Source: Chloroflexota bacterium (GTDB lineage: Bacteria > Chloroflexota > Anaerolineae > JAAEKA01). Taken from it: 44,186 bases of DNA. Below the pieces are notes generated by a model. It was not told the DNA's origin, ran no database searches, and saw nothing but the letters and a program-made list of their open reading frames with translations. The DNA is taken from contig JAYELL010000037.1 of NCBI GenBank assembly GCA_034717495.1, positions 1 to 44,186 of the forward strand, read 5' to 3'. Within the stretch, counting starts at the first letter, position 1. Every line of letters starts with the position of its first letter. Positions 21,139 to 31,936 of the stretch are shown piece after piece. The position numbers and the translations under genes are program-made.

Positions 21139-22605
21139 ATGGCGACATTATCGAAGAAACCGTCGAAGTCACGTCAAAAACGTAATACTATCTCAGGAAC
21201 CGAAATTGCCCGCTACGATTTCGTGTTGATGGGCGTGGTAGCCATATTGGTCGGACTGGGCCTGGTCATGATCTTCAGTGCCAGTTTTGAGGAAGCCAAC
21301 CGCACCTGGGGGAAATCAACCTGGTACTTTCTCCGACAGCTCCAATGGCTGGCCGTCGGCGGTGTTGCGATGGTCATCCTGGCCCTGATCGACTATCGAA
21401 TCCTGCACCATTTCGCGCTGCTGATCATGATCGTTACTCTGGGTGTTCTGATCGCCGTGCTGCTTTTTGGCGTGGATAATCTGGGTGCCCGACGGCACCT
21501 GATTGGCACATCTGTCCAGCCCAGCGAGGTCGCCAAGCTGACGATTACGATCTACATCGCCTATTGGCTGAGTTCCAAGGGCGACCGGATAAAGAAGGTG
21601 TCTCTCGGATTGCTGCCGTTCGCGATCTTGCTGGGGCTCGTGTCGTTGCTTATTATCCTGCAACCAGACCTGGGAACCACCATGGTAATCGTGGTCACAG
21701 GATTGATCATGTATTTCGTGGCCGGCGCTGATGGCAAGCAGGTCATCGCTACTATTGTAATCGCAACGATAACCATGGTACTTGCCGTAACGCAGATCGG
21801 CTATGCCCAGAATCGCGTCGACGAATTCCTGGCCGCGATCAAAAACCCCGGAGGCGAGGGAGGGTATCAGGTGTCAGCTGCCCTGGAGGCATTTGCCAGA
21901 GGCAGATGGTTTGGGACGGGGCTGGGCGACGGCGCCAAGGATGTCCCCTTGCCCTTCACCGATAGCATATTCGCCGTCGTCGGCGAGGAACTGGGCCTCG
22001 TGGGTACCCTCCTGGTGGTAGGGCTGTTCATGGCTCTGGCCTATCGCGGCCTGCGAATCGCACTTCGTTCCCAGGATAGGTTTGGAATGGTGCTTGGCTG
22101 TGGCATCACAGGCTGGTTGGCTATTCAGGCGTTCTTCAACATGGCAGTCAATACGGCAACATTGCCGTTCAGCGGTTTGACGCTGCCTTTCATCAGTTAT
22201 GGAGGATCCTCCCTGCTGGCATGCCTGGCCGGGGTGGGTCTGTTATTGAGTATTTCAAGATATGGAACACTTGCAGAGACCTCAAAGAAACCTGCCCGGC
22301 GAGATGACAGCCAAACCGATGCGGTCAATGCGTCTGCTGGTATCGGGCGGTGGGACTGGTGGCCACGTCTATCCAATTTTGGCCGTTCTGGACGCCCTAA
22401 AAAACGGGCAAAGGGAACGGCACGATCAAGACGGGCAGGCGCTACCACCAGCTACGTCGTCAAGGCAGCCAGTTTCGGCCGAGCCGGAAAGCTCGGCGGG
22501 CGCGTTACCAGGACAAAAAGGACCATCGCTCGTCGCACCGGCACAAGCAAGCGAAAGCGCGCTGCCAATGCCAGAGCAGTCAAGAGAATCCCGCGACGAC
22601 GGTGA
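21139..22605 (+). CDS. ftsW: Septal peptidoglycan polymerase FtsW with a long basic tail
   Basis: FtsW is the SEDS glycosyltransferase that polymerises lipid II at the septum with FtsI. The core (residues about 25-378) has ten hydrophobic segments. Signatures include LIILQPDLGT (171-180), the GTGLGDGAKDVPLPFTDSIF loop (259-278), EELGLVG and LPFISYGGSSLL (349-360). The family normally ends near residue 380-400. Here the frame stays open for about 110 more residues (379-488), with some 34 Lys/Arg against about 5 acidic residues. That tail overlaps murG in another frame. Either it is a real cytoplasmic extension or the true stop was lost and the tail is by-product sequence. Confidence 0.93.
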   Translation: MATLSKKPSKSRQKRNTISGTEIARYDFVLMGVVAILVGLGLVMIFSASFEEANRTWGKSTWYFLRQLQWLAVGGVAMVILALIDYRILHHFALLIMIVTLGVLIAVLLFGVDNLGARRHLIGTSVQPSEVAKLTITIYIAYWLSSKGDRIKKVSLGLLPFAILLGLVSLLIILQPDLGTTMVIVVTGLIMYFVAGADGKQVIATIVIATITMVLAVTQIGYAQNRVDEFLAAIKNPGGEGGYQVSAALEAFARGRWFGTGLGDGAKDVPLPFTDSIFAVVGEELGLVGTLLVVGLFMALAYRGLRIALRSQDRFGMVLGCGITGWLAIQAFFNMAVNTATLPFSGLTLPFISYGGSSLLACLAGVGLLLSISRYGTLAETSKKPARRDDSQTDAVNASAGIGRWDWWPRLSNFGRSGRPKKRAKGTARSRRAGATTSYVVKAASFGRAGKLGGRVTRTKRTIARRTGTSKRKRAANARAVKRIPRRR

Positions 22606-23623
22606 GGCGGACGCGATCCTTTACATTGGCATCGATGGTGGCATCGAAGAGCAGTTGGCCCGCGGGGCCGGCATCGATTTTCGCAGCATTCAGAGTGGCC
22701 AACTGAGAGGGATGGTTCCCTGGACTGCGACGGCCAGCCTGTTGAAAATGGTGAAGGGTTCCCGGCAGGCTCGCCAACAGATTGCCGATTTTAAGCCCGA
22801 TGTCGTTTTTGTAACCGGTGGTTTCGTGACGGGTCCGGTGGTCTGGGCCGCCTGGCGAGCCGGTATTCCGGTTTTGATTTACCTGCCAGATATTGAGCCA
22901 GGCCTGGCAATCCGCCGGCTTAGCCGTTTTGCACTGAGTGTGGCGGTCACCTTCCCGGAGGTGGCAGAGCATTTTCCTGGCAAGGCTGTGGTGACAGGCT
23001 ACCCGGTGCGTCCCGAGATTCTGAAAGTGGCCCGCGATCGGATGGCAGCCAGGCACCGTATGGGACTGGCCGGGGAGAAGCCAGTTGCCCTGGTCTTCGG
23101 TGGCAGCCGCGGCGCCCGAAGCATCAATCAGGCCTTGGCCGCAGTCCTGGATGACCTTCTCGATCGTTATCAGGTGGTTCATATTACTGGTACGCTGGAT
23201 TGGCAAGCTATGCAGGATCGAATCGGAAAGCTGACGGAAGCAAAACGTCAACGCTATCATTCCTTTCCCTATTTGCACGATGACATGGGCTATGCCCTGG
23301 CGTCGGCAGATCTGGTAGTGGCGCGGGCGGGCGCTTCGACGCTTGGCGAGTTTCCCGCCTTCGGCCTTCCCAGCATCCTGGTGCCCTATCCCTATTCAGG
23401 GCAGCATCAGGATGTCAACGCCGACTATCTGGTTGACCGGGGCGCAGCGCTCAAGCTGCCAGACGCCAGACTTGAGGCCGATCTGTTGGCAACTGTTGTT
23501 GGGTTGCTTGAAAATCCGGAGAAGATTCGTTTGATGGGCAAGGCTGCCGCGTCGCTGGCTCAACCTGACGCGGCAGGCAAAATCGCCCAGGAGATACGAA
23601 GTTTGGCTGTTGGCGGCCAATAG
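22328..23623 (+). CDS. murG: UDP-GlcNAc:lipid I GlcNAc transferase MurG with N-domain insertion
   Basis: MurG converts lipid I to lipid II at the cytoplasmic membrane face. The 431-aa protein starts MRLLVSGGGTGGHVYPIL, matching the family N-terminus exactly. In-frame ATGs also occur at 22262, 22304 and 22319. None has a Shine-Dalgarno, so translation is probably coupled to ftsW. The C-terminal domain has FGGSRGARSINQ, ARAGASTLGEF and the sugar-nucleotide motif PYPYSGQHQDVNA. Residues 27-95 are a low-complexity insertion rich in P, Q, S, A and E, between the first Rossmann strand/helix and the next strand (AILYIGIDGG). MurG is usually about 350-360 aa. The first 278 bp overlap ftsW in a different frame. 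Confidence 0.93.
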   Translation: MRLLVSGGGTGGHVYPILAVLDALKNGQRERHDQDGQALPPATSSRQPVSAEPESSAGALPGQKGPSLVAPAQASESALPMPEQSRESRDDGEADAILYIGIDGGIEEQLARGAGIDFRSIQSGQLRGMVPWTATASLLKMVKGSRQARQQIADFKPDVVFVTGGFVTGPVVWAAWRAGIPVLIYLPDIEPGLAIRRLSRFALSVAVTFPEVAEHFPGKAVVTGYPVRPEILKVARDRMAARHRMGLAGEKPVALVFGGSRGARSINQALAAVLDDLLDRYQVVHITGTLDWQAMQDRIGKLTEAKRQRYHSFPYLHDDMGYALASADLVVARAGASTLGEFPAFGLPSILVPYPYSGQHQDVNADYLVDRGAALKLPDARLEADLLATVVGLLENPEKIRLMGKAAASLAQPDAAGKIAQEIRSLAVGGQ

Positions 23624-24287: not shown

Positions 24288-24803
24288 ATGGGCCCAATAG
24301 AGGTGTTTTTTCTGGTTGTAATTGGTCTGTTCGGGGCCATTGGCATTGTTCGGGGCTACCAACGGGACCTGGGCGTCACGACCATGTTGTTGCTTGCTCT
24401 CTTTGTACTCACCTTCATCCCAGACTACCTCGGCGATCAGCTGGCCAGCGTCATGACCACCCTGGGCGTTAGCCAGAGCAGTGCGGAGACAGTCTATGCC
24501 ATTTTTGCTACCGTTCTGCTCTGCATTGTTGCTTTCATTTCATACCACGGCGTGGGCCTGCTGTTCCCAGGCTCAGGACGAAACTGGTTTGTCAGCCTGC
24601 TGGTTGGTCTGTTGAACGGCTATCTTTTTGCAGGCAGCATCTGGTGGTATCTGAACGATGCGGGTTGGCCGTTGGACACTGTGGTCGAGACCTACTCGTC
24701 GACCTATCAGTTCTTGATTCAGCTCATGCCGCCGGCGATCTTCAGCTGGCCATACTTTATCTTGTTGGCAGTCGGTATGTTGATTCTTCGCGTTGTACGG
24801 TGA
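24288..24803 (+). CDS. Unknown membrane protein, possibly CvpA-like (second of a pair)
   Basis: A 171-aa protein with four or five transmembrane helices (about residues 5-22, 29-45, 68-92, 99-121 and 150-168). The N-terminal helix pair joined by GIVRGYQRDLG resembles the GYxRG turn of CvpA-type membrane proteins. The similarity is short and the call is tentative. Start ATG follows a GAGGTGAGG stretch. It begins 4 bp after the preceding membrane-protein gene and ends 4 bp before murC-murB, so all are in one transcript. The two proteins may be diverged paralogues or form a complex; nothing in the sequence gives a reaction. Confidence 0.8.
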   Translation: MGPIEVFFLVVIGLFGAIGIVRGYQRDLGVTTMLLLALFVLTFIPDYLGDQLASVMTTLGVSQSSAETVYAIFATVLLCIVAFISYHGVGLLFPGSGRNWFVSLLVGLLNGYLFAGSIWWYLNDAGWPLDTVVETYSSTYQFLIQLMPPAIFSWPYFILLAVGMLILRVVR

Positions 24804-24807
24804 TTCA

Positions 24808-27258
24808 ATGACGGAATGGGCAACAGACGTGACGCGGGCTGATCTTCTGGATCAGAAAACTGCGCCATCGACCCACATTCATCTTGTTGGTGTGGGCGGT
24901 GCCGGCATGTCAGCAATCGCCCGCATCCTTGTGGAGCGTGGATTCCAGGTCTCTGGTTCCGATCTGAATCGCTCTGCGATGAGCGATGAGTTGGCCGAGT
25001 TGGGCGCGACGGTATTCCTTGGTCACCGGGCCAGCCAGGTGTCGGGAGCCAACCTGGTGCTGATCTCGTCGGCAATACCTGAGGACAACGAGGAATCTCT
25101 GGCCGCCCGAGACGCAGGCATTCCGGTCGTGAAGCGCCGGGAGTTTCTTGGACCATTGATGACAGGGTATCGCCAGCTCTGTGTGGCTGGCACCCATGGA
25201 AAAACCACCACCAGTGCCATGCTTGCGACTCTGCTTGATGGCATCGGTGCGGAACCGAGTTTCATCGTCGGCAGCCAGATTCTTGCGTTGGGCACCGCCG
25301 CCAGGTCTGGCCGGCCAGGCGGCCCCTTCGTCGTCGAAGCTGATGAGTACGACCGGATGTTTCTGGGATTGTCCCCTGAGGTTGCACTGGTGACCAACAT
25401 TGAATGGGACCACATTGATTGCTATCCGAAAACCGAGGATTATCAGGCTGCATTTGTCGAATTTGTCGGGCAGGTGTCGCCTGATGGGGTGATCGTTTAT
25501 TGTGGTGACGATGCCGGGGCTGGCGAACTCCGGTCGGTGATCGACTCCGCCGATCACCGGTGGATATCCTATGGCCTGGGCCAGGACAACGACTGGCGTG
25601 CCCGAAGACTCGCGCCCAACGCTACGGGCGGGTCTGATTTCGAGGTCTGGCAGGGTGGCTCCCGTCTGGGTACCTGGTCCTTGCCATTGCCAGGTGAACA
25701 CAATGTTAGAAACGTTCTGGGTTCCGTTGCTGCCGCGGCCGTTGCAGGTTACAACGTTTTCACTGAACCTTACAAAAACCTTAAAATTTCGACAAAAATG
25801 GCCGGAACAGCCCGCAGGTTGGAGCAAAAAGGCAAAAGTTGTGGTATAATCGTGCTTGACGACTACGCGCACCACCCTACTGAGGTGCGAGCAACGCTGA
25901 GTGCGGTACGGCAGCGCTTTCCCCGCCGTGACGTTTGGGTTCTCTTCCAGCCCCATACTTTTAGCCGCACTCGGGCTATGCTAACCGATTTTTACAAGAG
26001 CTTTGAAAACGCTGATCATGTGCTCATCACTGATATCTACGCCGCCCGCGAGCACGATACAATGGGCGTTTCGGCGTCAGATCTGGTAACTGCGCTACGC
26101 CCTGCTGTCGACGCGCGTTACGCCGGCGATCTGGGCAAGGCCACAGGGCTGTTTTTGGAGGAATTGCGGGAAGGAGATGTCCTTATCACGATGGGAGCGG
26201 GCGATGTCACCCGGGTAGGTGATCAAGTTCTTTCCCTCTTGCGAGAACGAGAGCAACATTCGGTTGAAGATGGTTCGGTTCAGAAGCACGTGGCGCTTTC
26301 CACTGAAATTGCCCGGGCAACGGGTCTTGCCGTGCGCCACGACGAGCCGCTTGCGGCACATACCACGATGCGAATTGGCGGTCCCGCGGAGCTGTTTGTG
26401 GTTGCAGGATCATCGGAGCAACTGCTGGCAATCACGCGGCTGGCCACGGAGGTCGGCGTTCCCCATCTCATTCTGGGTGGTGGCAGCAACATCCTTGTAA
26501 GCGATGCTGGTGTCCGGGGGTTGGTGATTTTGAACGCCTCCCGGGAGGTGCGCCGCCATGAAGGGAATGTTGTCTGGGCTGAATCGGGTGTGAACCTCGC
26601 CGGATTGGCGCGTCAAGCCATGCGGTGGGGATTGGCCGGACTGGAGTGGGGAGTTAGTGTTCCTGGTACGATCGGTGGCGCGGTGGTGGGCAATGCCGGT
26701 GCTCACGGTGGCGCCATCGCCGACTGCTTGCTCCGGGCGATGGTGTGGCAAAACGGAACTCTGGTGGAGTGGCCTCTGGCCCGTTTTCAGTACGGGTACA
26801 GGTATAGCAGATTGAAAGAGGCCATTGGAACCGGAGACGGCGATTTCGTCGTGCTTTCCGCGGCATTTGAATTGACACCCGATGATCCCGATGCGATCAA
26901 TGCCCGGGCGGCCGAATACCTGGCACACCGGCGCGCAACGCAGCCCGTTGAGCCCAGTAGCGGCTCCCTTTTCCAAAACCCACCCGGTGACTTTGCCGGG
27001 AGGATTCTCGAATCTCTCGGGTTGAAGGGTCGCCGTTTGGGCAACGCTGGGTTCTCAGAGGTGCACGCTAATTTCGTAGTCAACTATGGCGGAGCCAGCG
27101 CAGCGGATGTCATCGGGTTGATCGATCTGGCTCGGGAGGCTGCCTGGCAGGATATGGGTGTGGAACTGGTGCCCGAGATTCTCTTCGTTGGCGATTGGTC
27201 CCGGCAGCCCTCTTATCAGGAGCTTTCATTATCGGTTGAGCAAGTGAATCAATCATGA
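24808..27258 (+). CDS. murC-murB: MurC-MurB fusion (UDP-MurNAc:L-Ala ligase / UDP-enolpyruvyl-GlcNAc reductase)
   Basis: One 816-aa polypeptide joins two consecutive cytoplasmic steps. MurB reduces UDP-GlcNAc-enolpyruvate to UDP-MurNAc with FAD and NADPH, and MurC then adds L-Ala with ATP. The MurC half (about 1-480) has HIHLVGVGGAGMS (23-35), ATP loop GTHGKTTT (128-135) and LDDYAHHPTE (350-359). After a charged linker (about 480-505) the MurB half has HTTMRIGGPAE (518-528), LGGGSNILVSD and VPGTIGGAVVGNAG. The proton-donor serine is S720 in GSLFQNP, and the glutamate is E790 near the end. All expected catalytic motifs are present in both halves. Start ATG chosen over an upstream TTG at 24793, which would overlap the preceding gene. 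The stop overlaps ddl (ATGA). Confidence 0.96.
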   Translation: MTEWATDVTRADLLDQKTAPSTHIHLVGVGGAGMSAIARILVERGFQVSGSDLNRSAMSDELAELGATVFLGHRASQVSGANLVLISSAIPEDNEESLAARDAGIPVVKRREFLGPLMTGYRQLCVAGTHGKTTTSAMLATLLDGIGAEPSFIVGSQILALGTAARSGRPGGPFVVEADEYDRMFLGLSPEVALVTNIEWDHIDCYPKTEDYQAAFVEFVGQVSPDGVIVYCGDDAGAGELRSVIDSADHRWISYGLGQDNDWRARRLAPNATGGSDFEVWQGGSRLGTWSLPLPGEHNVRNVLGSVAAAAVAGYNVFTEPYKNLKISTKMAGTARRLEQKGKSCGIIVLDDYAHHPTEVRATLSAVRQRFPRRDVWVLFQPHTFSRTRAMLTDFYKSFENADHVLITDIYAAREHDTMGVSASDLVTALRPAVDARYAGDLGKATGLFLEELREGDVLITMGAGDVTRVGDQVLSLLREREQHSVEDGSVQKHVALSTEIARATGLAVRHDEPLAAHTTMRIGGPAELFVVAGSSEQLLAITRLATEVGVPHLILGGGSNILVSDAGVRGLVILNASREVRRHEGNVVWAESGVNLAGLARQAMRWGLAGLEWGVSVPGTIGGAVVGNAGAHGGAIADCLLRAMVWQNGTLVEWPLARFQYGYRYSRLKEAIGTGDGDFVVLSAAFELTPDDPDAINARAAEYLAHRRATQPVEPSSGSLFQNPPGDFAGRILESLGLKGRRLGNAGFSEVHANFVVNYGGASAADVIGLIDLAREAAWQDMGVELVPEILFVGDWSRQPSYQELSLSVEQVNQS

Positions 27259-30592: not shown

Positions 30593-31936
30593 ATGACAGC
30601 AGACTTTGAACAGCCGACAATTCGGGACCCATTGGCCAACGTGCCCAGGAGTGTGTCTTCGATAGACACAACTGAGTCTGTGGGCCAGCGGTTCCCGCAA
30701 GAGAGCGAATTCTCAGCCGATTCGCCAGATATCGATCGTAGGGATTCAACCAAGCGCAATCCGCCGCAGGAAAGCGGCATCAATCAGCGAGCAAGGAGTG
30801 ATAACATGGCTCGAAAATCTGCAAGAGAAGCACAACCGTCCTACGTTGACAACTTCGCCAAGATTCGAGTTGTCGGGGTGGGCGGCGGCGGCAGCAATGC
30901 CGTGAACCGCATGATCGACGCCGGAATCCAGGGTGTGGAGTTCATTGTCATCAATACCGATGCGCAGGCACTGCTGGAAGCCAATGCACCACAGCGCATG
31001 CGCATTGGCGACAAGCTGACCCGCGGCCTGGGGGCTGGCGGCGATCCCGAGCTGGGCGAGAAGGCCGCCCTCGAATCTGCCGAAGATGTTGTGTCAGTGG
31101 TCGACGGTGCTGACATGGTGTTTGTAACTGCCGGCATCGGCGGTGGCACCGGCACCGGTGCGGCACCGGTCGTGGCTCGGGTCGCTCGAGAAGCCGGAGC
31201 CCTGACCATCGGCGTCGTTACGCGTCCCTTCTCCTTTGAAGGAACGCGTCGCCGGCGAGTTGCCGACGAGGGCATCATGCGGCTGAAGGAAGAAGTCGAT
31301 ACCCTGATCGTCATCCCCAATGACCGGCTGCTTCAAATCGTGGACAAAAAAGCATCCATTCGGGAAGCGTTCACGGTAGCGGATGACGTGTTGAGGCAAG
31401 GTATCCAGGGAATCAGCGAACTGATTACGATCCCTGGCCTTATCAACCTGGACTTCGCGGATGTGCGAGCGGTGATGCAGGACGGCGGCTCTGCGTTGAT
31501 GGCCATTGGTACGGCCAACGGTGAAAACCGGGCACAGGAGGCAGCCGAACAGGCCATTGCCAGCAAGCTTCTGGATGTCAGCATCGACGGCGCCCAGGCA
31601 ATTCTGTTCAACGTAACTGGTGGCATGGACATGACCCTCCACGAGGTCAACGAGGCGGCGGAGATCATCCGGGCCACGACTCACCCCGAGTCCAATATCA
31701 TCTTCGGTGCTGTTCTCGATCCGACGATGGAGGATGACGTGCGGGTGACGGTCATCGCGACTGGTTTCGATCAGGCCGCCGATGCCCAAAAGCCAATCAG
31801 CACGATCGCCCCTCTGCCCGCGGAGACGGCCACCGAGCGAAGCGAAAAAACTGTTCCCTTCCCGGTCAGGACCTACAATCCGGACGACCTGGAGATTCCC
31901 GCGTTTCTGCGGCGAAAGCGCCAGCAGCAAGCCTAG
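30593..31936 (+). CDS. ftsZ: Cell division protein FtsZ with possible N-terminal extension
   Basis: FtsZ is the tubulin-like GTPase that forms the Z ring. The GTPase core begins [18 protein letters not shown] and has NTDAQAL, the tubulin signature [12 protein letters not shown] and the synergy-loop region DFADVRAVM. The C-terminal peptide [13 protein letters not shown], which binds FtsA, is intact. From the ATG at 30593 (GGAGG 12 nt upstream) the protein is 447 aa, with a 71-residue polar, disordered-looking leader before [11 protein letters not shown] second in-frame ATG at 30806 has AAGGAG seven nt upstream and gives a standard 376-aa FtsZ. Both starts are plausible. The long form is annotated so that no sequence is lost. 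Confidence 0.95.
30793..30808 (+). promoter_or_regulatory. Strong internal ribosome-binding site and start codon in ftsZ
   Basis: AAGGAG (30793-30798) lies seven bases before an in-frame ATG (30806-30808), which is better spaced than the site for the longer form. It could be the true ftsZ start or could produce a second, shorter FtsZ. Confidence 0.6.

Follow-up and report, generated by a model that had tools for sequence, protein, structure and literature searches.

The ftsW-murG locus

The window, a stretch of 44,186 nucleotides from a 5.0 Mb draft genome of a Chloroflexota bacterium (contig JAYELL010000037.1), carries the essential cell-wall genes ftsW and murG on the same strand, with the end of the first gene lying inside the second. 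The ftsW gene (21139..22605, + strand) encodes 488 amino acids and ends, as the earlier note had read from the letters, at 22605, with a TGA (22603-22605). Its membership of the SEDS family is given by the FTSW_RODA_SPOVE domain (PF01098, residues 32-375, E 1.4e-85), the end of which agrees with the previous placement of the conserved core boundary near codon 378. The murG open frame spans 22262 to 23623, in frame +1 with respect to ftsW. The start conserved among relatives in the alignment is the ATG at 22328 (MRLLVSGGGTGGHVYP), which defines a gene of 431 amino acids (22328..23623, + strand), and the identity of the product as MurG is established by the N- and C-terminal GT28 domains (PF03033 and PF04101), the GGGTGGH loop and the PDB matches 1f0k and 3s2u.

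The out-of-frame overlap (22328..22605, + strand) measures 278 nt when counted from the murG ATG shared with relatives, and 287, 302 or 344 nt if the in-frame ATGs upstream (22319, 22304 and 22262) are considered, which bears out the first estimate of about 280-345 bp. Each murG codon starts on position 2 of an ftsW codon, so that third-position changes in ftsW are second-position changes in murG.

The C-terminal tail of FtsW (codons 379-488, 22273..22602, + strand) contains 34 K/R, the very number first tallied among its 110 residues, and 5 D/E. Residues 388-484 are predicted by AlphaFold to be disordered, and a search of the tail alone against Pfam gave no domain match. Part of this tail is read from the DNA of the glycine-rich loop of MurG (GGGTGGH, 22346..22366, + strand), which in the ftsW frame belongs to GRWDWWPRL here and is Arg-rich in most relatives. 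The distal part is hosted by a MurG insert (residues 37-92, 22436..22603, + strand) that the AlphaFold model presents as a disordered loop (pLDDT around 30, below 50), the remainder of the protein being mostly above 90. The insert sits between helix 1 (11-34) and strand 2 (96-101) and finishes where ftsW finishes, a position close to that of the low-complexity insertion perceived earlier. This coincidence is not accepted as proof of selection on the FtsW tail, because the GA-starting Glu and Asp codons that precede strand 2 are natural sites for a stop in the ftsW frame. The G/C content of third positions is equally uninformative: over 22406-22602 it amounts to 55% for murG and 60% for ftsW, near the 58-59% counted before in both frames, and favours neither.

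Conservation within the order

The comparison set consisted of six genomes of the family, which are all those available for the order; they represent three genera, four of the genomes belong to one genus, and all are fragmented draft assemblies. A scan of the genome contigs with MurG matched only two loci. The overlap is kept, in the same frame, in the six genomes; measured from the beginning of the glycine loop, the FtsW stop falls 191-290 nt downstream.

The FtsW tails can be aligned across the three genera, and all six finish in R[IV]PRRR. In the window this terminus is RIPRRR (22585..22602, + strand), and the same DNA is read in the murG frame as an SRDDGE-type sequence here and an AAAE-type sequence in relatives; that is, the end of FtsW persists while the MurG residues that overlap it change. 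A second motif, VTRxxRTIARxTG, is common to five of the six tails in the FtsW alignment of the order, and corresponds to VTRTKRTIARRTG in the window (22504..22542, + strand) and to RLVRVRRSLARRPA in genome G001. The MurG insert is of low complexity and varies freely across the order. The alignment of related pairs that the earlier note had recommended thus reveals a tail frame that is open in every genome of the order and constrained in the insert; relatives with an FtsW that stops near codon 380 and an unconstrained tail frame, which would have counted against overprinting, were looked for in this comparison and did not appear.

Selection in the two reading frames

Selection was evaluated by the four-class counting scheme of OLGenie (PMC7531306) on an alignment made from the nucleotides only, which kept it independent of both proteins. 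In the part of the overlap that encodes the glycine loop and helix 1, dN/dS is 0.09 in the murG frame (P<0.001) and 1.36 in the ftsW frame. In the insert, the ftsW frame is the constrained one (dNN/dSN 0.46, bootstrap P<0.001) and the murG value is not significant (dNN/dNS 0.81, P 0.09). The free sites are near saturation between genera, and a dN/dS estimate of this kind is rough there. The controls gave the expected values, 0.24 for the FtsW-only part, 0.26 for the MurG-only body and 1.00 for a sham ftsW frame in that body, and the method therefore recovers the known frames. Counted by ftsW codon position (1/2/3), differences are 0.44/0.10/0.05 for the loop part; for the insert the figures are 0.31/0.24/0.39. 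Together with the dN/dS values, this pattern shows that constraint lies first on MurG, is taken over by FtsW inside the overlap and falls on MurG again downstream of it.

A second approach consisted of recoding the inserts of both genomes compared, with the MurG protein kept, and scoring the alignment in the FtsW frame; the reverse was also run. The MurG-preserving recodings gave FtsW-frame scores of 27-30 (sd around 11) and never matched the observed similarity (121-158, z 9.0-11.7). When FtsW was preserved and MurG scored, z was 1.0-2.9. The openness of the frame has less weight. With the MurG protein and the codon usage of the region fixed, the probability that the ftsW frame stays open that far by chance is 0.012 here (GC3 0.62), and 0.24-0.66 in GC-rich relatives; since between 24 and 66% of the recodings are open in the latter, an open frame was rejected as proof of coding, and it is the comparative tests that decide.

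Taken together, the comparisons indicate selection on the FtsW tail, for which the MurG insert, predicted to be disordered, is a permissive host loop. Purifying selection is detected in each frame in a part of the overlap, not throughout: by this evidence constraint is divided along the shared DNA, MurG ruling the first part and FtsW the second.

Distribution in the Chloroflexota

The overlap was then viewed in a sample of ftsW-murG pairs drawn both from the class, Anaerolineae, and from the other Chloroflexota classes, of which 136 were scored. In 108 of them FtsW extends beyond the MurG glycine loop, without exception in the same frame (6/6 in the order, 79/98 in the rest of the class, 23/32 in other classes). 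About a fifth (28/136) have no overlap past the loop, which implies that some lineages can do without the tail, and the overlap state changes nine times on the tree of pairs. The length of the MurG loop correlates with the end point of FtsW (Spearman 0.61), and several lineages have long FtsW tails within MurG inserts. One independent lineage of another class, f81 (five genomes), shows ftsW constraint in the insert (dN/dS 0.10, P<0.001), as does f38. As a whole, f31 shows no ftsW constraint in the insert (dN/dS 1.07), which means that selection does not act on all long tails. What had been described as a local overlap is indeed present, but its true extent is wider, reaching across the phylum, with constraint divided along the DNA.

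Some features of individual loci can be mentioned at this point. In the f81 loci L107, L108, L110, L112, L113 and L128 the FtsW stop lies inside the MurG insert, at a distance of 251 or 185 nt beyond the loop. Two f31 members, L045 and L046, carry tandem repeats (GQGAGGR-type) in the MurG insert that are read in both frames. In L059, L060, L062 and L071 the helix 1-strand 2 loop of MurG has inserts positioned after the FtsW stop, some of them repeat-like (VILSEAKN...RSAQSD in L059, FDYAQG in L071); the presence of long inserts beyond the stop makes this site a general insertion hotspot.

Codon choice in the glycine loop

The histidine codon of the glycine loop is CAC in the window (22364..22366, + strand), and its third base is the first base of FtsW Arg410 (CGT), a residue that is invariant in alignment A1. 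The choice between the two synonymous codons consequently decides an FtsW residue: CAC gives Arg and CAT gives Cys. Other factors also shape codon usage close to the beginning of genes (PMC12725619), and for this reason the non-overlapping pairs matter as controls. CAC is used in 105 of 107 overlapping pairs, where 62.3 are expected from the usage of each genome; among the 28 pairs without overlap it is used in 14, against 16.7 expected. When the overlapping pairs were thinned to 46 at <60% MurG identity, all 46 had CAC. In a matched control, made with the 29 overlapping pairs in which a second conserved MurG histidine was readable, CAC was found 29 times at the loop and 11 times at the other position, with 0 and 9 changes by parsimony, respectively. 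A tree-based contrast of overlap against CAC points in the right direction (3.6 pairs versus 0.1), with too little statistical power (median p 0.125).

The third base of Gly3 follows the same trend, favouring Asn or Asp in FtsW in 85 of 108 overlapping pairs (38.6 expected) and in 12 of 28 non-overlapping ones (12.6 expected). Only these two codons differ between the two groups in their bias toward FtsW. The Arg runs that lie opposite the glycine codons were considered as a sign of selection and discarded, for the third bases of Gly1, Gly2, Gly5 and Thr are no more Arg-favouring in overlapping pairs.

Origin of the overlap

With a high degree of confidence, based on these comparisons, the locus can be interpreted as a genuine and old same-strand overlap, in which a selected FtsW tail is encoded inside murG and both readings are preserved. 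The stop of ftsW inside murG would give FtsW a basic, disordered, cytoplasmic C-terminal tail, the first part of it coded by the DNA of the MurG glycine-rich loop. The tail would have lengthened in the order and in other Chloroflexota lineages as the permissive loop between helix 1 and strand 2 of MurG grew, and within the insert FtsW is the constrained product and the MurG loop a tolerated by-product. Both proteins are presumably made from the shared DNA, and MurG probably by its own initiation inside ftsW, since 278 nt is far too long a distance for termination-reinitiation. A broader proposal, which we consider probable with less assurance, is that across the Chloroflexota, in most of the lineages sampled, a selected FtsW tail is encoded out of frame in the active-site glycine loop of MurG, and that several lineages independently grew the MurG loop chiefly as a coding host. 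If this is true, a protein loop may be kept for what its DNA encodes in another frame.

The earlier note had left the choice between overprinting and a lost ftsW stop codon; the former stands, by virtue of the selection on the tail and its conservation in the six genomes, and the latter does not. According to the lost-stop explanation, the tail would be junk that runs on until murG happens to offer a stop in that frame, and the insert of MurG would be ordinary. It accounts for the commonest end point, because the signature GGGTGGHVYP cannot hold a stop in the ftsW frame and an FtsW without its stop would be carried 47 nt or more beyond the beginning of the loop; it is also in keeping with the frequent chance openness of the frame in GC-rich relatives and with the unconstrained long tail of f31. 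It is nevertheless very improbable, in view of the purifying selection that the tail frame shows within the insert, the recoding scores (z 9-12), the RIPRRR end conserved over changing MurG residues and the fixation of CAC, phylum-wide, in overlapping pairs only; for this order and for f81 it is already contradicted.

Somewhat less probable still is that the overlap is a translational device, which sets the FtsW:MurG ratio or couples the translation of both genes, the sequence of the tail being secondary. The usual overlap of ftsW and murG in E. coli is 4 nt, and short overlaps do support termination-reinitiation, but the efficiency of reinitiation drops steeply within tens of nucleotides (PMC10666635) and the ftsW stop is 278 nt past the murG start. 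Moreover, the trait conserved in the order is the amino acid sequence of FtsW, not a distance that goes from 191 to 290 nt. Coupling is therefore an unlikely purpose of the overlap, given that reinitiation works only over very short distances. An assembly or sequencing frameshift, or a misannotation such as that assigned to all 715 co-directional overlaps >60 bp in one survey (PMC2478687), is hardly credible and already contradicted, because six separately assembled genomes and more than 100 others have the same frame relation and both frames align to homologues through the region.

Relation to known overlaps

Same-strand overlaps are a known kind of arrangement; what is unusual in this one is its length, its spread in the phylum, the essential nature of the genes and the division of constraint. 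The ftsW-murG junction of the dcw cluster of E. coli has the same gene order and strand, but there the last base of ftsW is 99647 and the first of murG 99644, in a different frame phase from that found here. Long phase-1 overlaps described in surveys (PMC2542354, PMC3887535) are likewise on the same strand and compatible with a 3' extension of the upstream gene. In those surveys composition explains them without selection; the products of ftsW and murG, by comparison, are both selected, each in its own part of the shared DNA, and the spread is phylum-wide. There is also a superficial resemblance to class iii of PMC2478687 (3' extension of the upstream gene, >60 bp). That class is defined by an upstream gene longer than its orthologues, whereas the FtsW orthologues of the order carry the same tail. 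Among the papers searched, none on a long ftsW-murG overlap was found.

Long bacterial same-strand overlaps have been largely dismissed, and the present pair stands in contrast to those judged misannotated (PMC2478687), as it involves two essential, well-understood genes and selection can be detected in both of their frames. Since close relatives are available in which the overlap is short, long or absent, it is a natural test case for the origin, lengthening and loss of overlapping genes. It also follows that the MurG insert and the synonymous codons of the glycine loop are not to be read as MurG adaptations, and that annotation pipelines that trim long overlaps would remove the FtsW tail.

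Possible role of the FtsW tail

The C-terminus of FtsW is cytoplasmic. It could be speculated that its basic and disordered tail serves for electrostatic docking to a cytoplasmic partner at the division site, and the candidates may be the acidic C-terminal peptide of FtsZ, the anionic membrane, or the MurG/MraY machinery. The binding of FtsW by FtsZ in M. tuberculosis requires acidic residues at the FtsZ C-terminus (reviewed in PMC3989709). The FtsZ of the source genome also has an acidic stretch in its C-terminus, and the FtsW tail differs here in being coded inside murG.

Elsewhere in the window, the FtsZ at 30593-31936 has a long N-terminal extension, its GTPase domain beginning at residue 90, and at 24793-27258 murC and murB are apparently fused into one ORF of 821 amino acids.
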